Assembly: GCA_963920705.1 (NCBI GenBank)
Contig: OY987226.1
Coordinates: forward strand, 8,062,501-8,126,500
Reading direction: 5' to 3'
DNA from: Odiellus spinosus
Lineage: Eukaryota > Arthropoda > Arachnida > Opiliones > Phalangiidae
DNA: 64,000 bases
Positions 6,919 to 53,270 of this stretch are shown here, in pieces. The number at the start of each line of letters is the position of its first letter. The stretch's first letter is position 1. A program made the translations under genes and the position numbers. Below the pieces are notes generated by a model that did not search any database, had not been told where the DNA came from, and worked only from the letters and a program-made list of their open reading frames with translations.

Positions 6919-6925
6919 GTAAGAG

Positions 6926-7242
6926 CAAGAATCCATTCAGGTTCCATAAGAATATGGGAGCACCACGATTCAATAACCATCCTCCCAAACTTTGTAGCAA
7001 AAGTTCGTCTGCTTCGAATCGATTTTTCAAGTAAATCGCTCCTGACATTATATTATTAACCCGCGCCACTAACGACCTTGACATAATATTTTGGGCAATA
7101 AAAATGGAGCCGACCGAAAAAAGATCTAAGCGTACAAATGTTGCGAAAATTGCGGACGAACTTTTGTTACAAAGTTTGGGAGGATGGTACCAGAGGCTAA
7201 AGCTATGCTCCCATATTCTTATGGAACCTGAATGGATTCTTG
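6926..7242 (-). mobile_element. Foldback MITE family A, copy 1
   Basis: A 317-bp palindromic element with perfect terminal inverted repeats (CAAGAATCCATTCAGGTTCC at the left, its reverse complement at the right). The arms continue inward with CCATCCTCCCAAACTTTGTA and its complement. It is flanked by an exact 7-bp duplication, GTAAGAG (6919-6925 and 7243-7249). Copies at 26009 and 41093 are in the opposite orientation. The CA...TG ends with a 7-bp duplication suggest the P superfamily, Galileo-like; hAT or Dada are alternatives. An open frame crosses it on the minus strand, but no transposase is present. Confidence 0.9.
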
Positions 7243-7249
7243 GTAAGAG

Positions 7250-10128
7250 GGGTATAAGGTAATGCCTTAAGCTGTGAAAGTTACGATTTCTACTTCCAGT
7301 GGTCTGCGAAGAAGTCCTTTCGAGTTCGGAAACTCTTACAATTTTTTTGAAATTAAATATATAATTATCCTTTTTATCTTGAGAAACCAAGTATTTTTAG
7401 TTATCTACGTCTCTTGGACTAGACACCTTTTCTTAATTGGTTAGTGAGAGATGGATTTTTCTACTCCTTTGAATGTCTTTCCTGTGTAAAGCAAAAAGAT
7501 TCATTGAATTTCATTCTCCCTTGAAATCGTTTTCCATCCCCATCCTTTTCTCGTTCATTCTCAATCCTGGATAACTCTTCAGTGTTTGGTTGTATGTTGT
7601 TGGATTTGGAATAGCTCTATAGAGTGTCTATTTTACTTGATTGCGAAACTGTGGTAACTCGAAAATGAGAATAATTCTTTGGAAATTTTGTACAGCTGTT
7701 TCAGGATTGATTTTGATATCGAGCTAGATGAAAAGAGTAATTTTTTAATCAACAACTTCCGTGCAGTAATTTTAAATTACATTTTTTTCATTGATCTGAA
7801 TGCAAGCCTTTTATAATTTTACATTCATGCAGTACTCGCGGTTAAGATTGGTGTTAGAAATGAAGCTAGAGCAAGATAAATTAACCATTTCAGCGAGATT
7901 CGAAATACTTTTCGATTGACCCACTGGAATTACATGTTATTCTGAAGTAAAGTTAAATTTTATCATTAAATACTGAATTAGTTAAACCATGTCAAAAATA
8001 TATTAAATCGTTATAATTTATTAATTAATTATACATGCCGTTTATTCGGTTATCGACGTTAAATTAAATTTAGAATTTCGTTTTAATTACATAAATATGA
8101 GATATACCACCCTTTAGCATTGTGGGTTATCAGCCTTGCTCCTTTAAAGAGGTATGGTTAATCTATCAGGCACCCCCTTTGTTTAAATGAAGAGATAAAG
8201 CCCTGGCGCTTAAATTTTCCCGCACTATCTACCTTTTCATATCCCATCCATTATTGGTAGGGGAACGGGTCTAATTAGACATCTCTTAAGAAACGGCATT
8301 TGTTCCTGCGCGAATGATACCGCTCGTAAAACACTCTTGTTCGTACAATCCGTGTCTTTACTGAAAGTTTTCCATGAGCGTTACGGCGAATAGCGCTGAT
8401 GATTACTGGTCAACTCTCGTAATCCAATTAAGTCTCATCACCAGAAACACCCCCTCGAGTTGAACTTCTTAAGGTATGAATTCCACCAGAAACTAATCGG
8501 TTCGAAGAGTTTTTTGAGTTTCTCAGTACAAGCATAAGATAATGAACAGTCTTTTGGAAGTTCTTTATTCCTGGGGCTAGAAAAATCCCAGTTTTGCGCC
8601 ACCTAGTAGTAGTTTTTTTTGGAGAGGTAGTTAAAACCGACTGTCATTCCAATAATCGCCCTGTTAGGAAATACGTTAGTGCGTAAGGATCTCCTACGTG
8701 TAACTAACTAACCAATGATATTAGGGCCTTAGAGTTGTGAGCAAATCTTCGATAAACTGCCGGTAAAGTCGTAAAATTAGTTTTTATTTTATTTTTATTT
8801 TCAAATTAATTATTAATAATTATCATTTACGGCCATAATCTTCCATAAAAGTATATTCTCAAACTTAAACATCTAATTGTGAAAGTAGACAGAAGCATAT
8901 GTGGTCGCAGCTGCAAATATTTTCAATGACAAATTAAAAACCAATATTTCAAAACGTAGTTTCTAGACTATTGAAAGCTGGGCTGCTTAACACATTATGT
9001 AAAGTTTCATAAGAATAAAAATAGTCTTTTCAAACTTCAAACGATGCCTGAAAAGAAAAAGAAAAACAATATTAATAAAAAATATCTTTAACGTCCAAAG
9101 TTTTGGCACAGGCCTGCATGGCTTAACTTAAATGTCCAATCACTAATATGAATTTCTCGCTTGCCACTCTGGAAGCAATTCGAGCGAACCTGATCCTCCT
9201 TCGGTCTGAAGACCCTGAAAGATGGTCGGCTCCTTTTTACAGTTAGGGATAGTTCTAGCTTTCTGTCTTTTTTTTTCCTCTTCTTGTTTTCCTCGTCGTC
9301 AGCTTCTAGTTTGCCAGTCGGTTTCGAAATCAGTCGAGCGCGTTCTTTGAGAAATTAAAAGAAGTTTGACCCTGCGCCTAATAATATTATATGCAAAGAA
9401 AAGGGCTGGATATATGATCCAATGACGGTTAAGAAGAGGTGGTCCTCTCAAGAAATAATTAGTTGTCCCATGCAGATGACTTGCTCCATTTTATCGTTAC
9501 AACCAAAGAGAGAGAGTAAGATAAAAAGAAGACTTAAGTGGAGATTTTTTAGTCATACGCGCTTAAACCATTTTAGACTAATTTTCGATTACTCTTGAGT
9601 TTTTTTTTCTTCGTGCGATATAAAGGTGGTTATTTAGGAAGGCGAACTTGATTGTGTCTCGTTTGCAAATATATTGTAGGTATAATTTGAATTTAATTCA
9701 ACACATTACCTTTATTGTTATTTTTATTAAGGAAAGTTTAAATGTAAGAATTATAATAAGTACCGGCCATTCCCAACTCTCTTACGTAAATATTACACTG
9801 ATAAAATGGTGGTGTGAGTTGAGTTTGTAATTTAATATTTAAACCTAAACCTCTACTGTAAATTTTTATAAACAACATTAAGTATAGTTTTAATGAAGGT
9901 TTGAATGTAAAACGACTTATTCAACTTCCACGCAACTTTGTGCAAAATGGTATTGGATAATTGTCCAAATCTATAGTGCTAAAGTGTCAATAGAATTAAC
10001 TAATAGATTTCGAACTTTCGACCTTCTCTATTTAACCTATGTCAAAAGTTTTTGTAAGTTATATATTTAGATTTGCAAATTAGCGAAATCTCATTTTTGA
10101 AATGTTTATTATTTCCATTTGTATCATC
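7250..10128. other. No gene seen
   Basis: About 2.9 kb of mixed AT-rich sequence with slightly GC-richer parts near 8230-8720 and 9160-9480. No long open frame, tRNA or repeat family was recognised. Confidence 0.5.
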
Positions 10129-10135
10129 ATATTAC

Positions 10136-10473
10136 CAGAAGCCGATGAAACCCTCCTTTGAAGTCTATTACTCCCGGATCTTGTCTACCCCTCTCTGTAT
10201 GGGTTATTCTCAAAAGGCGCGATTCGTACGCCTCCTAACGGTAGATGTTTTCGGAGCGGAAACTCGTCGAGCGAATATCTCTAGCAGCCTTGGAGTTCGT
10301 CCAAAAAACGTCGTCGTTTGTGGAGAGAGAGAATTTCCAATTTTCCATAGACAGGGGGGGATGAAGTAGGACCCCTTCTAACTCGTAAAATTGTGAATTT
10401 TACCCATACAGAGAGGAGCGCTATATGGAACATCGGAGTAGTAGACTTCAAAGGAGGGTTTCATGGGCTTCTG
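10136..10473 (+). mobile_element. Foldback MITE family B, copy 1
   Basis: A 338-bp element with terminal inverted repeats CAGAAGCCGATGAAACCCTC and complement, one mismatch on the right. The arms also share CCTCTCTGTATGGGT about 60 bp in. It is flanked by an exact 7-bp duplication, ATATTAC (10129-10135 and 10474-10480). The core is GC-rich and carries no transposase. It has the same end chemistry as family A (CA...TG, 7-bp duplication), although the arm sequences are unrelated. Confidence 0.9.
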
Positions 10474-10480
10474 ATATTAC

Positions 10481-11865
10481 TTTATACGTCAAATACTTTT
10501 AAAAGTTTTAGTGTCTTAATTCAGCAGGGTTGAACAACCAATTCATCCCCGCCCCTAAACCATAGAGGCGATCCTAAATAAATTCAAAGAGACAAAATCC
10601 CATCAAGGAAATGTCACTCTAAACCCAATATATACCTATTTCGTACAGAAAACTCATCTGCCTCGCGATATTATGGAAAAAAAGGTGTATTCCTATTCGT
10701 GACATTCAAACTTCCTATCTGACACCAGTTCCAAGCTGTACCTCTCGTGCTGTAGTTGCGAGAGTCGGCAAGGGCGTCCGCGTGAGCACCGTTTCCGTCT
10801 TATAGCTAGCTTCCTGTTTTCTTGTCCAAAAGGCGCGGTAGAAAAGCGTCCCCCCCTCTTCTCAATGGCGCGTGACACTCGCGCGGGGTTATATCTATAC
10901 CCAAACTCCCCCGCCTAGTCCGATCAATTTCACCTAGGACCAATGGTACTGAAGTAGCAAGGTGTCCAAAGCCTTTCGTCGTGGTACCAAAGTGACATTG
11001 AAACTTTTCGGTATATGGAATTGGTTGCGTTAAAAATAAAAGAAATAGTCTGGACCAGACGAGGCTCGTATTAAGACCGCTCGCTTTCAGCCATGTTTAT
11101 TTAATCAATGGTGGACCCCTTTCCCTTCTCCTTGCTTTTTTGTAGCGAGCGCCTTTCAGGAAGTGTTGCACAAATCACTCGGAAACGATTCTAGCAGGCG
11201 GATATCGGAAGTAGTGGCCAAGGGTCCGTTGGTGCGCTCGTGGAATTCGCTATTTTGGAAGCCGGGCACTGCTTATACTATAAGGTTCTACAAGGAAACC
11301 CCCTTTTTTGAAAAGGAGTGTAACAGTTAGTTGCTTATAAACTATGGATGCGCGCTCTGAATAAAGATTGCAATGCAGGAGAAATTGTTAGGCTTAGTTT
11401 TGTTTAATTCGTTCTGGTTATTGGACATTCAGAGGGCTAGTATAGTATTTGTTATGGTTTTGTGGTGGTTTTAAGTGAGATATGGTTATACCCTAACGCA
11501 TTATAATCTCGGAAAGGATTCATTTCAATAACGACACAGAAACGGAACTATGTTTCATATATAAATTGAATTTTAGTATATATATCCGACTTGGGTTAAA
11601 ATATTCGCGACATGCTTGAAGTAGGGCTCCTTTATTCGATAAAACTAACTGTTAATGTAATATTTATATAGAAACTTTTATTAAATAGAAATACTAGATT
11701 TCATTTTATAGTTCGGGTTTTATTCAAAACATAGACATTATTTTGAAGGTAAACCTTGGTTTCCTTATGAGAAGTAGTTAGATTTTTTTGCTACTCTTAC
11801 TCTTAGGCTTCGATTATTATAAGTTAAAAATAAAAACTCCAATAATCAAAGTATCGATCACTTTG
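10481..11865. other. No gene; partly CpG-rich
   Basis: A GC- and CpG-richer stretch covers about 10540-10920 and 11050-11280, then the sequence returns to AT-rich. No recognisable protein or RNA gene. Confidence 0.45.
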
Positions 11866-12015
11866 GGAATCACCTGCATGTCAAATAGAATTTTTTTTCC
11901 GACACTTTTTCGATGTTTAAATTAATTTCTAAAGTTGAGTTTGAATTACAATGAAGAATAAAATTTAACCAATCAGATAAACCCTACGGTTCCAGCATTC
12001 AACAGATTTTCCAGT
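11866..12015 (+). mobile_element. Family D fragment (D3)
   Basis: This matches the inner left arm of D1 and D2: a GGAATCACC...CATG-like segment, then TTTAAATTAATTTCTAAAGT, then CCAATCA and CAGCATTCAACAG. The outer AGGGA terminus and the right arm are missing, so it is a truncated relic. Confidence 0.6.
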
Positions 12016-13989
12016 TTTCATAATGGCGTCACTTTCTCCAACTGGCGTCGGTTTTAAGGAAATCAATCGTGATATCACTGTTGCTACCACTAATATGATT
12101 GGTCCAAATTTACCCTACGCTATAATTCAATCAGAATTTAAATTAAGCACTAAAATGTCGACTATAAACTGTAGCAATATTAATTTATTCGTAATTTCGT
12201 ATGAAATTCTAAAATTACTCGTATATTCCTTTACAACTTTGGAACAAATAGTAGACCAACTATTGCCATTTTTTTGGAATCTTTTGTGTTTAATATTCTA
12301 GTGGTTGCGAACAAAATAACCAATGTTTCTACCAACCTCTGCTACTTAAATAAAAAAGAAGAAAAAATGGGTTCATTAATATTCCAATCACTTTTCCGTA
12401 CCTTTCGTTGTTAGTTCTTATTTAAAAAAACTCAACAACGGTTGTACAAAACCAGAGCCTTATTTAGTTACTAGAAAGGAAAAGAAAAACCGGGACTGGG
12501 GTCCTGCTTTTTGGTTCTCTAAATATTTGGCCTTTGAAGAAAAATAAACCTAGCGGGAAGTGCATTAAAGTAAACTAGATGGTATGTTATGTACTATAAG
12601 AAGTGTGCTCCCATGGTGCACTATGATATGCACCATTCCATTAGAGTTTGCATAAATATCATAACGTAGGCGGATTGATAAACAATGTTAGAAGATCTTA
12701 GACCAAAAAGAAGTCCTTGTCATCTTATTTTTGAAAACCAGTTTAGAATCGAGCCTGTGTTAGCTTTCTTGTAGATCTTGCAAAAGGCAAGACGATATCA
12801 TCTGGATTTTTTCCCGAACTCCGAGAGAGTTTGTCTTTTTAACCTTTTCTGATATCCAAACACAGAATGTGGATGGAGGGTCGACTTCAAACCGTCATTC
12901 TTCACTATAGTAGTTATCATTTGGAATTGGTACCACGTACGAAGCTTGTCTGTCCTGTTATCCGAATGATTGTTTACTTATATTTATGGAAAGAAATAGC
13001 TTGGACCGTGCTATCAAATTAAGGTGAAATCCATTATAGCTCCAAGCTACGTCAAATTGTAGTTAAATTCAGTTTGAGTTCTCAGCACGCGCAAAGCTAG
13101 GCATCGTTATTTTGTCTAACTTATTCGATGTAATGGGAACTAAGCTGGATATGTGAAATTTTCTTAGCGTCACCTGTATGATATTTTACTTTCTCAGCCC
13201 CTTATTTCTCTGTTATCTCAAATAGGTTGAAAATACTATGTTGGGTTTCCTGGTTTCTTCTATACTTCGTACAAATCGTAAGAGTTAATGTAGTGATGTT
13301 GGGAGAGTTGGAAAAAGGCTGCGGACATATCGCTTAGAAACTCTACCAGTCTCCCTTATTGTATGTATTGATTCAAAGGCATCGAATATATTGAGTCCTT
13401 GTCCTATCCATCCTTCGGTTTACTTACTTATCCGTCGTATGTGTCTCAGAAAAAAAAAACCTATAGTTTCATTCTATCTCAACCGACAGTGCAATGTCTG
13501 TAAATCTATATTTGAAGGTTAGGTCTCATGCAAATTTTGATTCTTATACCGTCATTCGCAAGAATTTGGAACAAAAAATTTGACCGCTTATTAATTATCA
13601 ATGTTTATTAATTAATATATTCAAAATATTTATAACAATGTTGGAATTGGTAAATTTTATTCTTCAAATTTAGACAGATATACAACGTGCTTGTTTGTAC
13701 TGGTACAGTTATTTCCGGTTTATTTGAAGCATGTATAGGATTTTTTCATACCGTTAGTGATTTTTCGAACTTTTTTGCAAATTGGTATATATTGAAAATT
13801 CGTGTCTAGTTATTGACCGATGTACGATATATCTGATTTTTAAACTATTTATAAGCTGTGTATCATACACAATTGAAATAAACCGTGATTTAGTTATTTT
13901 AAAACTTATGCCATATGCTTATAACTAGGACTACAAGCTTCTTTATGAAAATTCAAATATTTGCACACTGAATGTGGGAAGGGTTGTTC
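12016..13989. other. No gene recognised
   Basis: A 92-codon ATG frame at 12023-12301 starts MASLSPTGVG but matches no known family and lies at the edge of a transposon relic. The rest is AT-rich with an A8-9 run near 13450. Confidence 0.4.
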
Positions 13990-14785
13990 ATAACTGGATG
14001 AAACGTGGAAGAAAATTTTCTATTTTATGAATCTCGGAAATAAATATTCTAAATATTTTGGGAATCGAGGAAATACTCTAAATCTTGAATGCATTAGGGT
14101 AAATTTTCTGAATCTTTTTTGAATCGAGGAAGTAAATTTATTGAGGAAGTAAATTTTCTAAATCTTGAATGAATCTGGAAAATAAATTTTCTAAATCTTG
14201 AATGAATCGGGAAAATAAATTTTCTAAATTTTGAATGAATCGGGAAAATAAATTTTCTAAATTTTGAATGAATCGGGAAAATAAATTTTCTAAATTTTGA
14301 ATGAATCGGGAAAATAAATTTTCTAAATCTTGAATGAATCTGGAAAATAAATTTTCTAAATCTTGAATGAATCGGGAAAATAAATTTTCTAAATCTTGAA
14401 TGAATCTGGAAAATAAATTTTCTAAATCTTGAATGAATCGGGAAAATAAATTTTCTAAATCTTGAATGAATCGGGAAAATAAATTTTCTAAATCTTGAAT
14501 GAATCGGGAAAATAAATTTTCAATTTTTTTTTGAATCGTGGAAGTAATTAATATTCTTTGAATAGAGGAAGTACATTTTCGAAAAATCTTGACTGAATCA
14601 TTCAAGATTTAGCAAATTTGCTTCCCGGGTTCATTTAAGATTTAGAATATTTATTTCCTCGATTCATCAGTTGATATGGAAAACTCTTTCCACATTCAAG
14701 CCGCATATGTTTGAATTTTTTTTTAAATCTTGAATGAATCTGTGAAATAAAATTTCTAAATCTTGAATGAACAGTGGAAGACGTT
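13990..14785. repeat. 33-bp minisatellite with inverted units
   Basis: The core at about 14167-14530 holds roughly 11 nearly identical 33-bp units (GAATGAATCGGGAAAATAAA followed by TTTTCTAAATCTT). Variants differ at G/T in the CGGG position and C/T in AAATCTT. Degenerate units flank it at 13990-14166 and 14700-14785. Two units at about 14596-14670 are inverted, around a palindromic junction at 14583-14612. Because 33 is a multiple of 3, the minus strand stays open for 155 codons with a repeating ENLFSRFIQDL peptide. That frame begins at TTG and is judged a by-product. Confidence 0.9.
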
Positions 14786-17700: not shown

Positions 17701-18150
17701 CTTCCCCAAAGAAATCCTACTTTGATTTAAAAAAAAGTTTATTTTGAAAGTTAAAACGCAACAAAGAAAGTTAATAATTTTGACGAAAAATAATATTTCC
17801 CATTAATTAATTTTCATTAAAATTAGATTTGGCATTCTGTTGAAAAAACGTTAATTCCTACCAGCTTACACCGATTACACCATTGGAAAGCATGCACATA
17901 CCCTAGATTATTTCAAAAGAAGGAAATTGAGATAAGACACTCGGAAAAGATGTTTTGCCACTGCCTTAAATTAGCTAAGGCCCAAAAATGACCCTTATCC
18001 TAAAATTGGCTTAACTCTTCTCTATAATCTCTTAGGCTTAAATCGATTGCAACGTTCGATAAATCCATCTAAATGGCATTTCAAATTTATTTCATTTTTC
18101 GATTTTAATTTTATTTGGACCATTTTTGACCAACTTAAAAGTTTTTTTTT
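14786..18150. other. No gene; GC patch and a small hairpin
   Basis: CpG-richer sequence spans about 15040-15400 and 16540-16790. A short hairpin at 16522-16553 has arms ACCAGCA/TGCTGGT plus CGCC/GGCG. Otherwise AT-rich without recognised features. Confidence 0.45.
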
Positions 18151-18167
18151 CTCTCTCTCTCTCTCTC
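18151..18167. repeat. (CT)n microsatellite
   Basis: About eight CT dinucleotides directly after a T9 run, at the left edge of the H2 fragment. Confidence 0.9.
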
Positions 18168-18170
18168 ATT

Positions 18171-18305
18171 TGGACGTCACGCGCATGTAAAACAGCTCCA
18201 CCAATTTTTTTCAGTTATTGAAAATGAAATTCACGAGTGTTTGGCGCGAAATCAATTTGACGAGGGCCCAAATTTAGTCAGGTTGCATGTTTCTCTCTCA
18301 TTATT
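18171..18305 (+). mobile_element. Family H half-element (H2)
   Basis: This matches the centre and right arm of H1: GACGTCAC, then TTGAAAATGAAATT, then a GTGTTTGGCGCGAAATCAAT-like segment, then GACGAGG and GTCAGGTTGC. The left arm is absent. Confidence 0.65.
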
Positions 18306-19785: not shown

Positions 19786-19789
19786 TTAA

Positions 19790-20223
19790 AGGGAGGATGC
19801 AACCTAACAACAAGTGATTTTTTTATCGATTCCTTATTGTTTAAATAGGCCTAATCCACTATTTAAAAAATTTACAAACAAATATTAAACTAGAAATAAA
19901 TTTAAAACTTACCCTGAAAATAGGCTTAGTGGGATTCATGGAGCTCCTGATTTCCTCGCGTGTAAGGTCTAGCGACCAATCGCGCGCGACGTAAGTCTCG
20001 TGGAGATCTCGCGTGAACCACGCTCCTTTGCTCATTGGTCGCTAGACCTTACACGGACGCGATTCAGGATCTCCATGAATCCCGCTAAGCCTATTTTCAG
20101 GGTAATTTTTAAATTTATTTCTAGTTTAATATTTGTTTGTAAATTTTTTAAATAGTGGATTAGGCCTATTTAAACGATAAGGAATCGATAAAAAATCACT
20201 TGTAATTAGGTTGCATTCTCCCT
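19790..20223 (+). mobile_element. Foldback MITE family C, copy 1
   Basis: A 434-bp, almost fully palindromic element flanked by TTAA (19786-19789, 20224-20227). Ends are AGGGAGGATGCAACCTAA and complement. Long arms run through TAGGCCTAATCCAC, a CCTGAAAATAGGCTTAG segment and GGTCTAGCGACCAAT to a short CpG-rich loop. TTAA duplications with purine-first ends fit the Kolobok superfamily better than piggyBac, whose ends start CCC. No transposase is present. The right arm contains a splice-donor-like CAGGGTAA. Confidence 0.9.
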
Positions 20224-20227
20224 TTAA

Positions 20228-26001: not shown

Positions 26002-26008
26002 GTATAAA

Positions 26009-26324
26009 CAAGAATCCATTCAGGTTCCATAAGAATATGGGAGCATAGCTTTAGCCTCTGGTACCATCCTCCCAAACTTTGTAACAAAAGTTCGTCTGCA
26101 ATTTTCCCAACATTTGTACGCTTAGATCTTTTTTCGGTCGGCTCCATTTTTATTACCCAAAATATTATGTCAAGGTCGTTAGTGGCGCGGGTTAATAATA
26201 GATATCAGGAGCGATTTACTTGAAAAATCAATTCGAAGCAGACGAACTTTTGCTACAAAGTTTGGGAGGATGGTTATTGAATCGCGGCCCTCCCATATTC
26301 TTATGGAACCTGAATGAATTCTTG
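26009..26324 (+). mobile_element. Foldback MITE family A, copy 2
   Basis: 316 bp, with exact 7-bp duplication GTATAAA (26002-26008, 26325-26331). The terminal inverted repeats match copy 1 apart from one change near the right end. It is in the orientation of copy 3 and opposite to copy 1. A small change near 26200 interrupts the frame that stays open in copies 1 and 3. Confidence 0.9.
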
Positions 26325-26331
26325 GTATAAA

Positions 26332-28005: not shown

Positions 28006-28342
28006 CAGAAGCCGATGAAACCCTCCTTTGAAGTCTATTACTCCCGTGTCTAGTCTACCCCTCTCTGTATGGGTTATTCTCAAAAGGCGCGATCGTACGC
28101 CTCCTAACGGTAGATGTTTTCGGAGCGGGAGCTCGTCGAGCGAATATCTCTAGCAGCCTTGGAGTTCGTCAAAAAAAACGTCGTCGTTTGTGGAGAGAGA
28201 GAATTTCCAATTTTCCGTAGACAGGGGGGATGAAGTAGGACCCCTTCTAACTCGTAAAATTGGGAATTTTACCCATACAGAGAGGAGCGCTATATGGAAC
28301 ATTGGAGTAGTAGACTTCAAAGGAGGGTTTCATCGGCTTCTG
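28006..28342 (+). mobile_element. Foldback MITE family B, copy 2
   Basis: 337 bp, in the same orientation as copy 1 and very similar along its length. The terminal inverted repeats are perfect over the first 30 bp. Flanking CTAAGAA occurs at 27999-28005 and 28344-28350, but with one extra G between the right end and the repeat. This is a 7-bp duplication with a 1-nt insertion, or an 8-bp duplication with one mismatch. Confidence 0.88.
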
Positions 28343-35198: not shown

Positions 35199-35205
35199 AT
35201 AATAA

Positions 35206-35543
35206 CAGAAGTAGATGAAACCCTCCTTTGAAGTCTACTACTCTAATGTTCCATATAGCGCTCCTCTCTGTATGGGTAAAATTCCCAATTTTACGAGATC
35301 GGAGGGGTCCTACTTCATACCCCCCTGTCTACGGAAAATTGGAAATTCTCTCTCTCCACAAACGACGACGTTTTTTTGACGAACTCCAAGGCTGCTAGAG
35401 ATATTCGCTCGACATACTCCCGCTCCGAAAATATCTACCGTTAGGAGGCGTACGAATCGCGCTTTTTGAAACTAACCCATACAGAGAGGGGTAGACGAGA
35501 CCAGGGAGTAATAGACTTCAAAGGAGGGTTTCATCGGCTTCTG
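35206..35543 (-). mobile_element. Foldback MITE family B, copy 3
   Basis: 338 bp, inverted relative to copies 1 and 2. The left end has two substitutions (CAGAAGTAGATG). Flanks are ATAATAA on both sides (35199-35205, 35544-35550), but a TAA microsatellite follows on the right, so the duplication is less certain here. Confidence 0.88.
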
Positions 35544-35567
35544 ATAATAATAATAATAATAATAATA
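35544..35567. repeat. (TAA)8 microsatellite
   Basis: Abuts the right end of B3. It may have grown from the target duplication ATAATAA, or may predate the insertion. Confidence 0.9.
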
Positions 35568-38634: not shown

Positions 38635-39054
38635 CAGAGGTATATAATAACCCCCTTCGGGGGGGAAGTATGAAAGGTAGGCAAAATCGACGAACAACAA
38701 GTGCCCGGCGTAAATCGCGGCGGATCGACACACCGCTTTACTCCCAAAAAAATAGTTACACCATTTTGAACCTCACTAAATATTCCCTACGCGCACTTCC
38801 GGATCTTGCGACCTGAAGTCAACCTTCGACTCCATTTTAACAGACAGCCTGACTCCTGAGACAGGAAGTTCTAAACACAAATCGAGCCGTCTTGTTTATA
38901 CAAAGACCATTTACTAGAGTAGCGACATTGAGAAGTCCAGCGCGAGCTAGTGGCCTAGATAGTCAGCAGCGGGCTCTTGTTGTTCGTGATTTTTAGCATT
39001 GGTAGTATAGGGGCTTTCATACTTCCCCCCGAAGGGGGTTATTATATACCTCTG
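38635..39054. mobile_element. Foldback element family L with GC-rich ends
   Basis: 420 bp, with 40-plus-bp terminal inverted repeats starting CAGAGGTATATAATAACCCC and continuing through a C5-TT-C-G run to AAGTATGAAAG. The only clear difference is G7 versus G6. The arms extend to a second block (CGAACAACAAG/CTTGTTGTTCG). It is flanked by an exact 7-bp duplication, GTATTAC (38628-38634, 39055-39061). The interior is CpG-rich compared with its AT-rich surroundings. No transposase. It belongs with A, B, G and J by end type. Confidence 0.9.
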
Positions 39055-39061
39055 GTATTAC

Positions 39062-41085: not shown

Positions 41086-41092
41086 GTGAGCA

Positions 41093-41408
41093 CAAGAATC
41101 CATTCAGGTTCCATAAGAATATGGGAGCATAGGTTTAGCCTCTGGTACCATCCTCCCAAACTTTGTAACAAAAGTTCGTCCGCAATTTTCGCAACATTTG
41201 TACGCTTAGATGTTTTTTGGTCGGCTCCATTTTTATTACCCAAAATATTATGTCAAGGTCGTTAGTGGCGCGGGTTAATAATATAATGTCAGGAGCGATT
41301 TACTTGAAAAATCGATTCGAAGCGGACGAACTTTTGCTACAAAATTTGGTAGGATGGTTATTGAATCGCGGCCCTCCCATATTCTTATGGAACCTGAATG
41401 GATTCTTG
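41093..41408 (+). mobile_element. Foldback MITE family A, copy 3
   Basis: 316 bp, with exact 7-bp duplication GTGAGCA (41086-41092, 41409-41415). The terminal repeats are perfect. Same orientation as copy 2. A frame from 41217 reads through it (IMSRSLVARV... as in copy 1), starting at TTG; high sequence similarity explains the shared peptide. Confidence 0.9.
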
Positions 41409-41415
41409 GTGAGCA

Positions 41416-42143: not shown

Positions 42144-42147
42144 TTAA

Positions 42148-42355
42148 AGTAGACACACAACCTGACTCATTTCGGGCCTCGTCAAATTGAACTCGCGCCA
42201 AATTTTATTTTCCCCCGCTACTAAAATGAAAAGTAAAACCGACGTCACAAATCAATCGGGGATTTTTTTCAATTCTTGAAAATGAAATTGACGTGTTTGA
42301 CCCGTTTCAATTTGACGAGGCCCGAAATGAGTCAGGTTGCTTGTCTTGTCTACTT
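42148..42355. mobile_element. Foldback MITE family H, full copy (H1)
   Basis: 208 bp palindrome. The left arm has CAACCTGACTCATTTCGGGC and a CTCGTCAAATTGAA segment; the right arm is the complement. TTAA lies at both flanks (42144-42147; 42356-42359) and the outermost bases are AGTAGACA/TGTCTACT. A TTAA target suggests the same broad group as C and D. Fragments lie at 18171 and 44965. Confidence 0.8.
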
Positions 42356-42494
42356 TTAACAATATTTTTATCAAAGTTATCTATTAAAAAGTAATTGATT
42401 GTTCTACTCCGTCCGGAGGAAGAAGCGGGAAGACATATTTCTCTAACGATGAAATGATTGGCTACTCACCTCCTAACAGTGTAGCTTAGGCTCT

Positions 42495-42730
42495 CCATTA
42501 AAGGTTTTGCAATTAACCAATCTGTCCTTTTACACAGTTTTTAAATAACTAATATGTTCATTCCAAGATTTGTAATGAACTAATTTTATATGTCAATTTC
42601 GAGTTTTTTTTAAACTAATTATATCTTTCCTCTTCAAGTTTTGTAATTAATTATTTCTTTACATTTTGGGTTTTGTAATTAACTAATTGTATCTGTCATT
42701 CTGAGTTTTATAATCAACTAATATAATTCC
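42495..42730. repeat. Degenerate minisatellite, about 34-bp unit
   Basis: Six decayed copies of GAGTTTTGTAATTAACTAAT followed by T-rich TATCT(T/G)TC. Anchors lie near 42501, 42567, 42600, 42638, 42668 and 42702. Confidence 0.7.
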
Positions 42731-42750
42731 TTCTAGTGGGCAATTATATA

Positions 42751-42781
42751 ATTGTATAATTATATAATTATACGTATATTT
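42751..42781. repeat. AT palindrome cluster
   Basis: Overlapping palindromes of AATTATATAATT type around TGTATAA. Directly follows the minisatellite. Confidence 0.75.
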
Positions 42782-43485
42782 TATATACGAGAGAAAATAT
42801 GATAATTATAGGTTTCACGTGGACTTTAATGATAGTAGAAATTCATTTATACGAAGCTCTTAGTTGAACAAACTTTGATTATAGATTACTTAACTCGACG
42901 TCAGTCCCACTTTGCTTTTCTGCTAAACTCTCCTAGATATTGGGCTCTTTTGCGATAGAAATAAATTTACTTGGCCTTGATTGTTGGGTAAATTCGGATT
43001 ATTCCTCAGCTCCCGTGTAAGTTTGACTATGAATATGAGAAGCTATTTATTACGCGTAGGTGGGATGGTGGGTTAGAGGTTAAAGGTCAAGGAAACTGCG
43101 CTTAAGATATTCCTATCGGTGTTCCTCTGATATATTTATTTCTTTTTCATTCGCTTCGCGGTCGCAACCACCCTCGAATTCCGTTCTAATTAATTCGGCA
43201 GAAACTCGAAGATTTATTAAAGCCTGTTGCTCACAAAAAGGTTTATAATTTAAAAATGATATATGACAATAACTACTGAACTAGAGTACGAGACTAGGTT
43301 TGAAATTTAAATGTGTTGATTGAGGTGAAATATGAAATACTTCAAAGTGATCCTGAAACAATTTTTGTGGAAGAAAGTGATGATGTCACCTATTTTTTCG
43401 AAGGTTTAAGAATGACGTCAAAATAACGGACTTTAAAAATTATAACAAATATCAGTTTTTAGTATTACCTTTCATAATAACATAA
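42782..43485. other. No gene seen
   Basis: AT-rich spacer, no features. Confidence 0.5.
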
Positions 43486-43492
43486 GTAATAT

Positions 43493-43952
43493 CACAAGTA
43501 AATCATCCTTCAAGTTTATAAGACGACATACTGCGGGTGACCATGAAGTGAGTCCGATTTCCTCAGTCCATGGTTTCACCCTAAGTATTCCGAATTTGTA
43601 CAGAAAGGCGGCTAAGCCCCAGTATATTCTTTCTAAAGTAAATCAGACTCGAAATCGAGACAGCCGGGCGAGACACGCTCCTTCGTTTCGCGAGAGAGAG
43701 GGGAGAGTTGTTTTCCGTCGTTACATTTTCATCCCCGTAAACGTCTAGAAAGTTCAAGGCATTATTAGCACCGCCTACTTGGTTCCAATCTCAACCGCTA
43801 GAGAGGGCAATTTCGAATTCCATATCTCGACCATTTAGAGTTTTTGGATTTTTTCCTCTCACCTCGAGCGAAAACTCTGACGACAACACTTTCAGAACCA
43901 CGTACCAATCATAATATGCCTTGTTGTAAACTTGAAGCGTTATTTACCTGTG
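43493..43952 (+). mobile_element. Inverted-repeat element family G, full copy (G2)
   Basis: 460 bp. Left end CACAAGTAAATCATCCTTCA and a diverged complement at the right (TTATTTACCTGTG). Exact 7-bp duplication GTAATAT (43486-43492, 43953-43959). The interior is CpG-richer, with a local hairpin GGGTGACCATG/CATGGTTTCACCC. No transposase. The CA...TG ends and 7-bp duplication group it with A, B, J and L. Confidence 0.85.
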
Positions 43953-43959
43953 GTAATAT

Positions 43960-44964
43960 GCGATTACGGCCGGCTCTAGTACCAATCGGGGCGTTCCTGA
44001 AAGTGAACTTTGTCTTCATTTAATATCTCCGACTTAAAATACGTTCTTGGTAATATAATAAATATTTATAAGCTGAACATAATAGCATATACATAAAAAA
44101 TCCTAATAAACGCCAACGTTAATAACATTTAGGTTAAAAAAATCTTGCCAGTAACTTTTATATAATATAAAAATATGAGAGTGATCGAACCGTCGCCAGC
44201 CATAAAACGCCTTGTCAAGTTTCAACTCAATTTTATTTTTACTACATTTGGCAGATGGTGACCGTATATAAAGCATAGTACCCCAAACACAACACAAAAC
44301 CCCCATTATACCCAAAATATATTAGATGTAAAAAATGTCTCCCAACAAATTCTATAGACCTAGGTCCATCCATTAAAAAAATAACCGTTAGTTTTTTTTT
44401 TTCTTTCTTCAACCCCATCCTAACTCTAAAGCCTTTGACAGTAACAAGATTTGCCGCTCTTCAACCATACATCTAAGAAGAGACTGGTAAAACATGAACG
44501 CAAAGATTTTTTTAACCTTTAAACGAATCCATAAAATCTTCATTAAAATCTCACTATAATATCATGGTAATTCTGACTAAGCCTAACTTATTTTTATTCG
44601 GTAATTTTGGAGAGATTCAGTAATGTTGATTATAAATAGCGGATGAGACAACTTTTTAACCCAACAAAAATGTCTCACTGATACATTTCTTTCTAATTAA
44701 CTCATTATTTTCACGCAACTCATTATTTTCACACAATAGAACTAGTTGACTTAGGTAGTCAAAGGCTTGTATCATCAGAGCATGCATTTAGAAATGATCC
44801 GAAGCTTTACTTTCCAAAATTTCTAACAAATAAAGCTAAATGACCCAATTTTCCCCAAGATATTAAATACACAATGAAAGTCTAAAGCCATTTCATTAAA
44901 ATCAACATATATTTTAGCTTGCACAGAGAAAACTTTCTCTATAGTGTCATCACGTGTATCAGAA
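43960..44964. other. No gene seen
   Basis: AT-rich, no recognised features. Confidence 0.5.
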
Positions 44965-45020
44965 AACGTGTTTGGCGCCAGTTCAATTTGACGAGGCCCG
45001 AAATGAAGCAGATTGTGTGT
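44965..45020 (+). mobile_element. Family H arm fragment (H3)
   Basis: Matches the right arm of H1/H2: GTGTTTGGCGCCAGTTCAAT, then TTGACGAGGCCCGAAATGA and TGTGTGTCTG, followed by TTAA. The left arm is absent. Confidence 0.65.
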
Positions 45021-46444
45021 CTGTTAATGGTTTGAATCCATGCATTACTAGTCTCCGAATCAGGCATCTTCACGAAGGAGGGATTCTTTCCCTCAAGGAT
45101 CCCCATCCCTCAGTCTTCTCCGGTTGCCTTGTTGCGTGTAGCTAAAGCGTGCTAAAGGCTTTAATGAGGTTGACGCGTGGTATATAGCAAACTTTTATAC
45201 CCACTCCCCGACCAATACTTCTCACGCAGTTCACCCTCTCCCTCGAAACATCAAAAGATCCTAAAAGAGACTGGAGTTGACAGTCTACAAACAAGAACCA
45301 AGGAGGCTTCTTTGCTCGATCGAAAACTCTTTTAAAACTCGTTTTTCGCGCGGGGGTGAGGAAGAGGGTGAGTACCCTTCGTTTCATCGGACTATTGACC
45401 ACGGTCCAAGCGAAGCCTAACCGTTGAGCCGCTTTTTGAAAAGGCCTTCGCTGATTCTTCGTATGATTAATGGCCCTGTTACTCAAAATACGTTGTTGAT
45501 GACGTTAGGGTGTCCCTGACTTGGCAGCCGGGATGATTCGCGCGAGGAAGGATGGAGACACTTTTTCCCGATCAACTCCCACGTAGCCCTATCTCCGGAA
45601 GCTTGGGAGAAGCGAAGCTCTGTTTATAGACTAGAGATGTGTACACCCATCTTTTCCCTTTAATGACAACTTAACCAAACATTCTTGGTTGCGCTTTCGA
45701 TGGTTTATTAGCTACACATCTCCGATAGTAGTTTGCAATGTAGCGAAACCCGACGTACATTTATACACGATGATAAACTTGGTTGTAGATAAAAGTAGTT
45801 TTGGATTTGTCGCCTGAACAAGAGCATATATCCTTAGTTTAAAAAGCTTTTAGGTTAAGCTGGTGTTATCGAATGTCGTTTTTACTCACTGTTTTAATGT
45901 TCGTAATACCACGCCCTCCGCACGCGATTTTGAAGTTTTGTTTACACTAGTATTTATGGTGAATAGACGCCCAAAATGGTTTAGTTTTGGTTGAATAGTG
46001 GGGTGAAAGAGTAAATTGAATCTGAAGAGGATTATTTTTACAAAGACCTGCCAAAAAGCAACGTTAGGTCCTTTTCTTTTGTACTTTTTATGCTCTTTAA
46101 TATGATCATATAAAGAAATTAGTTTTGTGAAAGGGAGACTAAATTCTACAGATTTCTCAGGAAAATCAAATGAAATTTATTGTTAAAGTTAATTAAACTT
46201 ATATGTGCATACATTTTATCTAAAATATATAATTCTCTGTGTATTAATGTCTGTGTGTCTGTCTGTCAAACACTAACGCTAAACTTTAAACTGAAGCGAA
46301 AGGAAATTGATACAATACAATGTTAAACTTCATTGGGAAAAAAGTTGACAATTGAAATTAACTTTAATTATAGAAGCGAGATTTGTTTGTGGTTTTCAAT
46401 TCAACTCAAATCCCGCGAGTTTGAATTTTATTTCATTTCTAGAC
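45021..46444. other. No gene; CpG-richer first half
   Basis: GC-richer sequence spans about 45040-45620. The longest frame (45142-45486, minus) begins at TTG and matches nothing. AT-rich after 45640. Confidence 0.4.
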
Positions 46445-46448
46445 TTAA

Positions 46449-46882
46449 AGGGAGAATGCAACCTAATTACAAGTGATTTTTTTATCGATTCCTTATCGTT
46501 TAAATAGGCCTAATCCACCGATAAAAAGTTTACAATACAAATATTAAACTAGAAATAAATTTAAAACTTACCCTGAAAATAGGCTTAGCGGGATTCATGC
46601 AGATCCTGAATCGCGTCCGTGTAAGGTCTAGCGACCAATGAGAAAAGGCTCGTCGTTCACGCGAGATCTCCGCGAGACTTACGTCGCGTGTGATTGGTCG
46701 CTAGACCTTACACGCGAGGAAAACAGGAGCTCCATGAATCCCACTAAGCCTATTTTCAGGGTAAGTTTTAAATTTATTTCTAGTTTAATATTTGTTTGTA
46801 AATTTTTTAAATAGTGGATTAGGCCTATTTAAACGATAAAGAATCGATAAAAAATCACTTGTTGTTAGGTTGCATCCTCCCT
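46449..46882 (-). mobile_element. Foldback MITE family C, copy 2
   Basis: 434 bp, the same length as copy 1 and in the opposite orientation. TTAA on both sides (46445-46448, 46883-46886). Ends AGGGAGAATGCAACCTAAT / complement. It has the CAGGGTAAGT donor-like motif in the right arm. Confidence 0.9.
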
Positions 46883-46886
46883 TTAA

Positions 46887-48343
46887 TGTTAATGATTTCG
46901 GCTTAATACTTGAGAGAGGCTATATCGTTTTTGCTATGTTTCAGAAAGTTCAGACTCTTGTTACAAATGTTTAATTATTTTCGCTTGCAGGCTAATTTCG
47001 CAATACCGATATTTCCTAATAAACGACCTTTCCCTGGATAGCGGATAATAATGATGCAACTTATAATTAAAAGTAAATAACCCAGATCTAGCTAAGATTA
47101 AATACCAGGGGTTAAGTCGGAATACGAAAAGATTTCTGGAGCAATAAGATTAGGATCAGATTGATATTTCAAGATATGTAAATCTTAATTTCGACTAATT
47201 ATTGTGACATGAAAGCCCTAAGATAGTGGGGAATCTTTGTACGTTTTGAAACCTGAAGAGATTCAGACTGAGAATTGTAATCCAAATCTTAGCTTAAATG
47301 TCAGTGACAGGTTTTCGCCTCAAAAGTGTTTCTGTGAAGAGGAAAATTCTGCTAAGTTAAGTTTGGGTATTAAATGTGTTCAGGAAACCTAATTTTGGCA
47401 TTCAATCAAAAGACTAAAAAAAAAAATCTAAAATTAAATTTCAGTAATTTAAATTCGGGCTGTGAAACGGTAACTTACCATCCGTAATTTATCGAATATC
47501 GCGGTAATTTGCTGATTTTCAAATACGTATTTATACCATTGTAAATTATCGTTAATTTAAAATCAAAATTTTTGGAAAAATTCTAAAATTTCTCACCTCT
47601 AATACAAATTATTTTTAATAATTATATTTCATGTCACAGACGCTTTAAGGAACTTATTTTATCGATTGACTTTCTTAACGTACGCCTACCAAGTGGGATG
47701 TTATAAGACCAACACGCGGAGGTCATATGGAGAGATTCGAGTCTTTCCCAAGCTATAGCTTTGCCTGCCAGTTAATTCGTAAGGTCAATTTTCATCGCGT
47801 GGGTCTTACACTAACAGGTGAAGCACGCCATTCTTATTTGCTTAACGTTTTCTCAGTGAGGTCCCTAAAGAGCGGTCCCTGCCAAATGAAAGATTGCTAG
47901 TAAATATACGAATTCCCGAAGGTTGTCTGAGAAAAATTATTTTTACTTACCTTTCCTAGTTGTTTGTCCGTCCCATCACTTACAATATTTATTGGAAGGA
48001 TATCCTTACATTTCGTACCTAGAATTTTCATCTTCGGACGTTTCGTCTCGAAGGAACTTAGGAAGTTGTGTCCCCTGACATTTCGACCAATTTGAAAGTG
48101 CTATAAAAGATTTAAGGCGAATATAACAAGTAGATTAAAGTTTAAATTCAGGTCAAACCAAGTATAAACGGACAGAAATGAAAAATTAATGTTGGGTGAA
48201 CTTTAGAGGAATTTAATGTTAATATTATACGTACTAGTTTTAGTATATTTTTCCAAAAAAGTATTATGGTTAAAACATTTCCAAAAAGATTGGATAAAGT
48301 CGACATACAAAAATGTCCTATCTTTTTCTTATTATTTACAAAA
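46887..48343. other. No gene seen
   Basis: AT-rich. A decent 3' splice-site-like sequence (TTTCGCTTGCAG) ends at about 46990, followed by only 16 open codons. No features beyond that. Confidence 0.45.
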
Positions 48344-48639
48344 GCTACGGTCACACTAGCATTTCTTTATCGATTAGAAACGGTAAAAATCAAACCGATA
48401 TTGAAATCGTAAGTAATCGTTTTAAGCGTCACGTGTAAACTCATTGTCTTTATAAATCGATTTACTGTAGCTTCATCTATTGGTTGTTGAAACTGAATCG
48501 ATATGAAACTGGTTCCCGAAGCACTTTCGAGAAATCGAATCAAATCGATTTCGATAAAAGACGGTTTCCCGTTCACACTACGTTAACGAAACGTTTTGAA
48601 ACGATGTAAATCGATTCCAAGGGATAGTATGAACGCGGC
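48344..48639 (+). mobile_element. Repeat family I, copy 1
   Basis: About 296 bp between diverged ends GCTACGGTCACACTAGC and a right end whose complement is GCCGCGTTCATACTATCC. The interior repeats AATCGATT-type words and matches copy 2 in order (TGTTGAAACTGAATCG, ATGAAACTGGTTCCCG, GAGAAATCGAATCAAATCGA). Probably a non-autonomous DNA transposon. No target duplication was found. Confidence 0.7.
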
Positions 48640-49760
48640 TTAATTAAAATCAAATCTTAATCAATGAGTTCCTTTAAAGTGAAGCTGTTGCATTATGAAA
48701 TACTTAATCATAATAAAATCTTTGAAACTATAATTTTAAAAATATTATATTGCTCTTTCTCTAACCATAAATTTTTAATTTCCGTCTCTTTACGGGTTTG
48801 ACCTGAATCTGATAAAGGTTTAATATTTTCCTATCAGATAGTAAATCTCTTACCAGAATTCAGAATATATATTTGATATTAATAATAAGCTTGTTTGAGA
48901 TTATAATAACGTTCTTAACCTAGACTTTCCATACCTCGGGTTTGGAAGCTAACTCAAAAAATTAAAATATTTTTTAAATTGAATTTAGGCTTAGCTGGAT
49001 GGGCTTGTTTTCAAATTATAATAGGTTTAGTATACATGTACTTACTCGGAACTGTTATTTAGAAGTTTCCTTATGACGTCACCGCGATAACGATTTTATT
49101 ATTCTGATTACAAAAATAAATATTCTTAAGACAATAGATATTGTTGAAATAGCCCATGTCTAATTTATACTCGTCTTTTAAAAGTTTAATTTAGATTTAC
49201 CTTCCTAAATTTTGAATTTTTGACTCTTGGAGGAACTAATACCTTTATACCAATGAGGTTGAAGTTGAAAGCTTGCTTTAATATTTCTTAAACTGATTTG
49301 ACCTTTACTATTTGACCTTTAATATTCTTAAGAAAATTAAAACCTTCCGCATGACATTTTCATCTTTTAACATAAATGTTTCATCTCTAAAAGACCAAAA
49401 ATAAAGTCTTAAGTCCTTCTAATTGTTTCAAATTATCTCCCTAGATTAAATATAGCTTACTGTAAAATATAATGTGGGGTAGTTTATCTTTTGGTTATAT
49501 GTATGACGTTTTGCGGTTACGTATACAAGTTAAATTAAAAATCTAATTAACGAAGAAGTTTGGTTTGCTGTAAAATCCCTTAAAGGATTTGTGTTAAACC
49601 CATGAAACATTTTTTTTTTTTTTTTTGCCCTTTTCATATATGTATAATCCTGTTTATAAAGTTAAAGAGGCATGATTAAGCTATATGGAATCAACGTTTA
49701 ACTTTTAAGTTTAAATTTTACAAACAATTTTTAAACTAAACGTATTGTTCATCTTTTCAT
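48640..49760. other. No gene seen
   Basis: AT-rich with a T16-17 run near 49610-49626. No features. Confidence 0.5.
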
Positions 49761-49764
49761 TTAA

Positions 49765-50186
49765 AGGGAGAATGCAACCTAATAACGAGTGATTTTTAAT
49801 CGATTCCTTATCGTTTAAATAAGCCTCACCCACCAATAAAAAAGTTTACAAAACAAATATTAAACTAGAAATAAATTTAAAACTTACCAGGAAAATAGGC
49901 TTAGCGGGATTTATGGAGATCCTGAATTGCCTCTATGTAAGATCTAGCGACCAATGAGCAAAGGGCCGTCGTTCACGCGAGATTTCCACGAGACTTACAA
50001 TCGAATTCGATTGGTCGAGAGGAAATCGGAATCTTCATGAATCCCGCTAAGCCTTTTCTCCTGGTAAGTTTTAAAATTGTTTCTAGTTTAATATTTGTTT
50101 GAAATCTTTTTCATTATTGTATTAGGCCTATTTAAAGAATAAGGAATCGATAAAAAAAATCTCATTTGTTCGGTTGCATTTTCCCT
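49765..50186 (-). mobile_element. Foldback MITE family C, copy 3
   Basis: 422 bp. TTAA flanks (49761-49764, 50187-50190). More diverged than copies 1 and 2. The right inner arm has lost the block complementary to TAAGATCTAGCGACC, so the central stem is broken. Confidence 0.88.
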
Positions 50187-50190
50187 TTAA

Positions 50191-50665
50191 AGGCAACCAA
50201 TTTTAAAGGCAAATATATAAGAGCTGTACATAAGATGTCTTTTTTTCACTGCCTTTATGTTTATTGTTCCTATAAAAACAAGTCCAACTTATTTTTTATA
50301 TAGCCCCCTTTATAAAGAAGTAAATGCTCGATGAAAGCCAAGGATAAGAATAAAGTGCAATAAAACTTTGCGCTATCTGATAAAGGTAAAATTGATACCA
50401 ATATAAAATCATTTGGAATTGTCAGCGCAATACGTTGAGGCGGATTAATACACAATATTATATGTCATACGTCATAAAAGTAGTCAACTAAGTTTCTCTA
50501 GAATATAAATAGTACCATGAACAACTTTATGAACAAGAACACGTAAATGAAGATATAATTGGGTTATATTGGCGATATAACAGGCTTTTACCCCCAATTT
50601 ATTCCTTATACTCTAAGCTCATCCCTAGAATTAAATCTTAAAGCGACCTCTTTTGTGTTTTTCCT
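50191..50665. other. No gene seen
   Basis: AT-rich spacer between two family C copies. Confidence 0.5.
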
Positions 50666-50669
50666 TTAA

Positions 50670-51002
50670 AGGGAGAATGCAACCTAACAAGTGATTTTTT
50701 TTTTATCGATTCCTTATTGTTTAAATAGGCCTAATCCACCAGTGAAAAAATTTACAAACAAGGTCTAGCGACCAATCAAACGCGACTGTAAGTCTCGTGT
50801 AGATCTCGCGTGAACGATGGGCCTTTGTTCATTGGTCTGTAGATCTTACACCGAGGCAATTCAGGATCTCTATGAATCCCGCTAAGCCTATTTTAAGTTT
50901 TAAATTTGTTTATAGTTTAATATTTGTTTTGTAAACTTTTTATGCGTGGATTAGGCCTATTTAATAACAAAAATTCACTTGTTATTAGGTTTCATTCTTC
51001 CT
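50670..51002 (+). mobile_element. Foldback MITE family C, copy 4 (left arm deleted)
   Basis: 333 bp, TTAA flanks (50666-50669, 51003-51006). The left arm jumps from TTTACAAACA straight to AGGTCTAGCGACC. It lacks the roughly 90 bp present in copies 1 and 2 that would pair with the retained right-arm sequence (GAATCCCGCTAAGCC...). This is a one-sided internal deletion. Confidence 0.88.
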
Positions 51003-51006
51003 TTAA

Positions 51007-52831
51007 TTTCATTTCATATAAATAGTATTAGTATTCGAGTATTTTAATATTTTTATTATATTAAATTTAACACGTTATTATTTTGAAAATCTGTCCATTT
51101 TTCTCGCTCGCTTTTGATCCTTAATTGAGATTTAATCTTTTAAAACGAGTGAACTACGCCTAAATCCCAAGGAAAAAGTATGCCATCATGGAATCTTAAT
51201 AATCCCCTTCATTCTCTAGTTTCATAAATTACTTTGTTATATACACTTTGCTCAAGAGAATGCAGTTTTCAGTGTAGGGAAAAACTAAAGCGAATTGATA
51301 CGCAATTGTTCAATCAGGTAGTGGTTAAAAGCAGATAGATGATTCAATCAAGAGTATAGTATCGAAGTATTGGCAGCGCAAAATAATCAAAGGCGGGAAT
51401 GTACCCCCGTACTAGACTAATTCCTCTTAGCAATCCCGAGCAAGGAGCGAGTGTGCGAAATACATGTAGGCGTAGTTGTTGGGTAGAGAAAAGGGTTCAA
51501 GAAGCTTTAATTAACTCGGATCATTAGTTTAAAGCTGGGGCCTACGAAGCGTAATTAACGCAACAAAGCCTAGAGCTCAGGGAAGCCCTGACTCAGTCCC
51601 GATTTTGACGGGGGTATGAACTAACCCCTAATTTTCACCCCCTTATAGTTGAATCGGACGCTCTTTTCCACGGCTGCCTAATTATTTTCGTGATTCTCTG
51701 ATTGTCGTAAAGTAAAAGGGGCCAATCGCTGAAGCCATTTTACTCCACCCATCCTTTTTGGTTGCTGGCCTCGTGACCCTTTCGCTTGAATATTCGAGCT
51801 ATTGATTTTGCATCAATGGTGAATAATTTTTAGTTAAGTAAAGTCAAGGACCGAAGTAGCTCGAAAATTAAATTGAAAAGGTCCATTGGGCGTATGGGAA
51901 AATCCTTTTCAAGTGAGGGTGACACGATAAAGCCTCTAACTTGTCCTCTAACGGCAAACAGTGGCCGAAGTAGTAACTAAGAAAACCACTCGCGAGTCTG
52001 CCTATTCTCTACCTCAAACTCTAATATTTAATTTTTCTTTTTAATATATGAAGCTATTTCACTGGTTTTAAGGGGAATTTTCGGTCCTGGTTTTGGTGTA
52101 TAATTCCTCGAGATGAACTTGTCACTGAGACTTGCTCTTAAAACGGACCTATACCGATCTCTAGAGAGCAACGAGGTTTTCGCGTGAAATTGATATTAAC
52201 GACGAAGTCCGCGCGTCTATTTAATAATTGCTGTGTGAAGATTCTCGACTTTCTTGAAATCTAAGGAAACTCGAATATTTGGTTAAATTCGTGACTTTTG
52301 GTAGGTATAGTTTTCGAGGGTTTTCAGAACTTTCCCGGTAGTTAAATAGAGGCGCGCGCCTGGAAACTTGAATACTACATTAGAGTACTTCAACTATGTC
52401 TTTATTAACCAAAAGAGCGTGCCACATTTTGAGCTTTTGGAACTAGACCTATATAGACCTTGGAAGCTTTGATTTTAGACCCATTTGCTATTCTAAGGTG
52501 TGCTAACTTCGTAAGATCAACACTATAATAGTCATAGTGTGTCTTATTATATCACGGAGCGACTTTAAAGGGAAGATAGAAAAGTATACCAATAAGTTAT
52601 TATAAAATATTAGTAAACTAACGTTTAACTTCAGTTTAACTTCAATGTTAAACTTCAGGCGTGAGATTTTATTGCAAACGCAAGATGTTTAATAATCGTT
52701 TTAAGTTAAATAAGTTTCGATTAACAAAATTGTGACATATTTTTATTTTTGCAACGAGGCAACTGTTATGTTTCATTGAAACTTCCCTCTCGAAGGAGGA
52801 TTTTAATAGACTCTAGTTGTACACAAAGATT
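51007..52831. other. No gene seen
   Basis: About 1.8 kb. Mixed composition with GC-richer parts near 51400-51800. No features recognised. Confidence 0.45.
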
Positions 52832-53270
52832 TACCTTGTCAAATGTTTTGACTTACTTCACCTTGTCAAATGTTACATAATTTACTTACATCACCTCGCC
52901 AAACGTTACATCATGGATTAATCAACCTCACAGGGATAATTCACTCTGGTAAAATGATTGTTCGAATCGCACCCTGGTGACAAAAATTGTCTACACCGGA
53001 AGTTTCTAGCTACCGATACACGGGGTGAAATATTGAAGGGGAAAAAAACTCTAAAGAAGACGATGCTCTCATGGATTACTTCCGGATTTGTATCGGTAAG
53101 GGGGTAAAATTGAGGGGCCGGATAAAATGTCTGGCAGCCACGTTTGAAACAAACATCTTCAACTACTAGTATAGCAAATCGTACCAGAGTGAATTATCCC
53201 TGTCAGGTTGACTAATCCATGGTTACATTGACTTTACCTTGCCAAACGTTACATTGACTTCGAACATCTA
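52832..53270. repeat. Short tandem array split by element J
   Basis: Units of about 27-33 bp built on CACCTTGTCAAATGTTACAT. Three lie at 52832-52911 and one to two at 53222-53270. The array is interrupted by the 310-bp element J. Confidence 0.7.
52912..53221. mobile_element. Foldback element family J
   Basis: 310 bp. Ends CATGGATTAATCAACCT / complement with few mismatches. The arms continue through GGGATAATTCACTCTGGTA. Exact 7-bp flanks GTTACAT (52905-52911, 53222-53228). Because the host array itself contains GTTACAT in each unit, this duplication is less independent than the others. No coding capacity. Confidence 0.85.

Follow-up and report, generated by a model that had tools for sequence, protein, structure and literature searches.

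Five families of miniature inverted-repeat elements with 7-bp target duplications, and co-resident P-type transposons, in the Odiellus spinosus genome

Inverted-repeat families in a 64-kb window

The window analysed here, a stretch of 64,000 nucleotides of the Odiellus spinosus genome (G000:C2:8062501-8126500 of a 443-Mb assembly in 286 contigs), contains five families of short inverted-repeat elements, A, B, G, J and L, which we assign to the miniature inverted-repeat transposable elements (MITEs) and which were probably mobilized by P-superfamily transposases. The window is AT-rich (GC = 35%) and holds only four closed reading frames of at least 150 codons. All nine copies of the families are 310-460 bp long, start with CA and end with TG. 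Family A is present at 6926..7242 (copy A1, minus strand, inverted relative to A2 and A3; target-site duplication (TSD) GTAAGAG at 6919-6925 and 7243-7249), at 26009..26324 (A2, plus strand; GTATAAA at 26002-26008 and 26325-26331) and at 41093..41408 (A3, plus strand; GTGAGCA at 41086-41092 and 41409-41415). The copies of family B lie at 10136..10473 (B1, plus strand; ATATTAC at 10129-10135 and 10474-10480), 28006..28342 (B2, plus strand; CTAAGAA on the left and G+CTAAGAA on the right, a 1-nt slip) and 35206..35543 (B3, minus strand, inverted relative to B1 and B2; ATAATAA at 35199-35205 and 35544-35550). Families J (38635..39054; GTATTAC), G (43493..43952; GTAATAT) and L (52912..53221; GTTACAT) have one copy each, with no strand assigned.

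The family G copy is inserted within a longer repeat that spans about 2.9 kb (42151-45022), between inverted arms at 42151-42202 and 44971-45022 that begin AGACACACAAYCTG and agree at 92% over 52 bp. A piece of the left arm recurs in inverted orientation at 42306-42346.

A scan of the window for elements of 150-2500 bp with CA...TG ends, inverted ends matching at 14 or more of 20 positions and an exact 7-bp flanking repeat returned eight elements, three of family A, two of B and one each of J, G and L, and nothing else. In all eight the inverted ends match at 16 or more of 20 positions. At this 16/20 level the identical eight were recovered when the CA...TG requirement was dropped, and no element was found in the window with flanking repeats of 5, 6, 8 or 9 bp; 20 Markov shuffles of the window (7 bp, 14/20) gave 0 elements each. 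The scan thereby confirms an earlier note on this DNA, which had described five CA...TG families of 310-460 bp with exact 7-bp duplications at eight of nine copies and the slip at B2. That their arm sequences differ also holds, as BLAST between the five families detects no similarity at E 0.001.

The same note had called the elements palindromic foldbacks. This description is overstated: the self-complementary arms span about 91 bp at 81-84% in A1 and A3, 72-74 bp at 79-83% in family B, 42 bp at 98% in J, 40 bp at 95% in L and 38 bp at 79% in G, and only A2 matches its own complement over its full length, at 68%. Because the arms are only 38-91 bp long, we reject a true foldback structure and classify the elements as MITEs. 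They are short and non-coding, with terminal inverted repeats, a target duplication and many copies, the multiplicity having been measured for B, G and J.

Genome-wide copies and target signature

Beyond the window, copies were measured for families B, G and J, while A and L are represented by their window copies. Forty copies per family were scored, by identity to the window copy and not between copies. Among 1541 first-look candidates for family B, the 40 scored are all full length and 97-100% identical; for J (960 candidates) the 40 scored are 98-100% identical, and for G (1679 candidates) 89-91%, the window copy itself aside. Exact copies of the 21-bp end of J number 3387 (1718 + 1669), against 0 for a control. 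The identities of B and J on the one hand and G on the other, gauged against the window copy only, suggest a greater age for G than for B and J, and the families thus seem to differ in age.

Target duplications were compared in 29 copies: three of A, 10 of B, four of J, 11 of G and one of L. Each window copy is counted once, and one G copy (L051) is excluded for a truncated end. An exact 7-bp duplication flanks 21 of them, eight in the window and 13 elsewhere (seven B, two J and four G). The earlier note had named duplications of another length as evidence against its reading; exact repeats of 5, 6 or 8-12 bp occur at none of the 29 copies, with A and L drawn from the window only. The exact-repeat test found just four matching bases at one of the eight remaining copies (G copy L053) and nothing at the other seven. 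By eye, these eight comprise the slip at B2, a one-base mismatch in J copy L068 and in G copies L046, L048, L050, L053 and L054, and two mismatches from a 7-bp repeat in G copy L047. L046, L047 and L048 are not independent insertions, since they have a common left flank; the right flank of G copy L055 starts like those of L046 and L048.

The symmetrized consensus of the 21 exact duplications, to which family A contributes three copies and family L one, is RTANTAY. Fourteen of the 21 combine T at position 2 with A at position 6 (NTNNNAN), at a window background of 0.106 (binomial p 1.3e-9, an optimistic value, because the two positions were picked after viewing these duplications). The MITEs thus combine a duplication length of 7 bp with a palindromic GT...AC-like target, a combination (7 or 8 bp) that is a trait of the P superfamily.

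P-type transposons and other repeats

We searched the genome for matches to PF21787, the RNase H domain of P-type transposases. All 150 matches scored, from 386 candidates, lie above the Pfam cut-off, although a few of these places may be fragments of one copy. Fifteen places were read as 7-8 kb regions, and both ends of the element were mapped in eight. Seven of the eight have 7-bp duplications: L041 (3777 bp; ATTATAC, by eye), L057 (4140 bp; ATCCGAC, ends CACTACCTCC), L059 (5318 bp; GTAGAAT), L060 (5832 bp; CTTCTTG), L064 (5443 bp; CTCCAAT), L065 (3948 bp; ATTAAAT) and the element that begins in L042 and continues in L070 (4581 bp; GTTTATA). The eighth, L039 (5207 bp, L039 1438-6644), has an 8-bp duplication, CGCCAACC, and ends CATAGATAAAATAACTACGT. 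We take the ends of L039 to be reminiscent of the Drosophila P element and those of L057 to resemble the Galileo terminus. CA...TG ends are present in L039, L057, L064 and L065. The T2/A6 signature is found in five of the first six full-length 7-bp elements (p 7.5e-5, a value that applies to these six); the seventh duplication, GTTTATA, lacks A6, giving 5/7 in all. Ends went undetected in the other seven long regions (L040, L043, L056, L058, L061, L062 and L063), and in 30 shorter loci with 1.5-kb flanks (L009-L038) no element with CA...TG ends and a 7- or 8-bp repeat was detected, though most of these loci would be too short to include both ends.

A Pfam scan of eight transposases (L039, L040, L041, L057, L059, L060, L064 and L065) recovered the RNase H (PF21787) and GTP-binding (PF21788) domains in all, the GTP-binding match of L065 lying below the cut-off (21.4 against 24.8 bits). 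A THAP domain is present in L040, L041, L057 and L059; it was not found in the scanned frames of L039, L060, L064 and L065, from which the first exon may be missing. L065 (1.7e-12) and L039 (1.2e-29) both match 6p5a, the solved structure of the Drosophila P transposase. In a tree of 44 transposase rows (33 different), the 7-bp elements fall into two groups. One unites L041, L042, L057 and L065 with support 100/100, L042 being unlabelled in the tree because its ends were mapped afterwards; the other contains L059, L060 and L064 within a group of 23 rows (100/99). The 8-bp element L039 belongs to a third group (100/99). Support for the deeper nodes that connect the groups is weak (65/79), and the tree program flagged long branches. 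The two 7-bp groups also differ in their element ends.

The larger elements L059, L060 and L064 (5.3-5.8 kb) carry additional opposite-strand open frames downstream of the transposase, of 217 aa in L059, 128 aa in L060 and 554 aa in L064. Pfam returned no match for the L064 frame and only one sub-threshold match for that of L059.

The window also contains a second inverted-repeat family, flanked by TTAA and with ends AGGGAGAATGCAACCTAA, at 19790-20223, 46449-46882, 49765-51002 and 58463-58863. With arms of up to 162 bp, it looks like a TTAA-targeting MITE family, presumably of piggyBac or Kolobok type. A tandem array at 14150-14521 comprises 11.3 copies of a 33-bp unit; beyond it, at 14598-14667, lies a partial copy in inverted orientation.

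Origin of the families

In this genome, short elements of MITE anatomy, with 7-bp duplications and a target signature, reside together with 7-bp P-type transposons inserted at the same type of site. The duplication length, the target signature and the company of P-type elements make an assignment to the P superfamily likely, and we consider it probable that P-superfamily transposases moved the five families, as non-autonomous MITEs, in trans. We infer both that P-type transposases, rather than those of another superfamily, were the movers and that each family had its own partner. Such transposases, with THAP DNA-binding, RNase H-like catalytic and GTP-binding insertion domains, would make cuts staggered by 7 bp at (G/A)TANTA(C/T), a loosely palindromic target. 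In the most likely scenario, the families were moved in successive waves by several related P-type transposases, with each enzyme recognizing its own terminal repeats.

Several observations weigh against this assignment. An exact 7-bp repeat is missing from eight of the 29 copies, the T2/A6 signature was selected with the MITE duplications in view, and four of the seven 7-bp elements (L041, L042, L059 and L060) do not start with CA. A long P-type element with the ends of the MITEs had been proposed as a check; P-type elements are present, but none of the eight mapped has ends that match A, B, G, J or L, and 40 comparisons of MITE arms with mapped P-type ends gave no convincing likeness. The best anchored agreements, 11/16 between family L and L039 and 10/16 between family G and L039, are not counted as evidence. 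For family J we searched with an end pattern that excluded the MITE's own next base. It has 34 matches, none of them forming a pair 2-9 kb apart and one pair lying 0.37 kb apart, a MITE-sized distance; the pattern is blind to a partner that keeps fewer than 33 exact bases or continues with G or C. All 34 of these ends are at least 72 kb away from the nearest of the 150 transposase places. Contig C1 has 36 such places, of which 34 fall within 3.13-16.43 Mb (limits set after viewing the list). Of the 100 J ends listed there, in a listing that reaches 18.88 Mb, one lies in this region, 77 lie below it and 22 above. Over that stretch of C1, the transposases and the young MITEs are thus spatially separated. 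The separation may reflect nested transposons near a centromere, which is a guess; alternatively, J's partner may lie outside the scored places. The transposase search, moreover, covered the P type (PF21787) and no other superfamily.

This last point, together with the lack of an end-matching partner among the P-type elements read, leaves room for a different superfamily with 7-bp duplications, such as Dada, MULE or an unusual hAT, as the mover of some or all families, a scenario we regard as rather unlikely. The RTANTAY target agrees with that of this genome's P-type elements and of Galileo. For Dada, PMC8869645 gives duplications of 6-7 bp, a range that includes the 7 bp of the window families. 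Multicopy RNA genes are the insertion sites of many Dada families. There is no Rfam match at the gathering threshold in the window; the window copies therefore do not lie in tRNA or snRNA genes, unlike Dada insertions, and with no RNA gene family in the window we rejected Dada on the evidence of these copies. The target duplications of hAT elements are 8 bp long, and no exact 8-bp repeat flanks any of the 29 copies.

The earlier note had attributed all lineages to one active P-like transposase. In such a model a single Galileo-like enzyme would have moved all five families, their arms being free to differ since a very short terminal core suffices, and the CA...TG ends, 7-bp duplications and target signature common to the five are in keeping with it. 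The genome, however, houses 7-bp P-type transposases of two well supported groups that differ in their ends, and BLAST finds nothing in common between the families. The best-scored copies, moreover, are 89-91% (G), 97-98% (B) and 98-99% (J) identical to the window copy, and these values, measured to that copy only, suggest different ages. These findings make a single transposase unlikely, and we do not retain that part of the proposal. Its P-superfamily part stands on indirect grounds, namely the 150 PF21787 matches, the 7-bp duplications of seven of eight elements and the Galileo-like target; no end-matching partner was found among the mapped elements. It is extremely improbable that the 7-bp repeats arose by chance or through misalignment next to palindromes that have no relation to one another: some duplications are AT-rich, and ATAATAA at B3 sits in a short repeat and has the same letters at L005, but shuffles and other repeat lengths gave no elements and 13 further exact 7-bp copies were found elsewhere.

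P-type transposons are best known from flies, and 1360 / Hoppel / ProtoP elements have 7-bp duplications. PMC4168063 groups 1360 / Hoppel / ProtoP with Galileo and P as the P superfamily and gives Drosophila Galileo 7-bp duplications with the consensus GTANTAC; in D. willistoni the consensus is GTATTAC, with three 8-bp copies. The window families and the P-type elements of this genome likewise have 7-bp duplications and a Galileo-type palindromic target, the TSD of J in the window having the same letters as the D. willistoni consensus and RTANTAY holding over 21 copies, and the full-length elements encode a THAP and RNase H-like transposase. Galileo differs in being described with extended inverted repeats that are repetitive internally, against arms of 38-91 bp in these MITEs, whose total length is 310-460 bp. 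For the MITEs the likeness is one of duplication and target, and no mover of the Galileo clade is implied. In Anopheles gambiae, P-MITEs with 8-bp duplications occur beside several P masters (PMC1562414). Common to both genomes are several MITE families, of different ages in Anopheles and seemingly so here, next to several P-type master lineages, and we list as common ground that the interiors of the Anopheles P-MITEs are unrelated to their masters. The duplications here are 7 bp rather than 8 bp, and whereas the Anopheles masters share about 100 bp of ends with their MITEs, no master was found here. P-derived MITEs are thus already known, and the window swarm is a 7-bp case of the same kind; in an incomplete literature search, based on partial texts, we found no account of 7-bp P-type MITEs as numerous as these.

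The swarm in itself is as expected for MITEs beside DNA transposons. We tentatively suggest that it belongs to a P-superfamily radiation spanning two or more deep transposase lineages. In this radiation, 7-bp cutting of the Galileo type would predominate, the 8-bp P element would be the exception, and each lineage would have its own high-copy MITEs, all aiming at RTANTAY. With many P-type lineages, mostly 7-bp among those mapped, and MITE families of seemingly differing age, the genome offers material on how the stagger of P transposases, 7 or 8 bp, evolved, and for testing how MITEs find their transposase.

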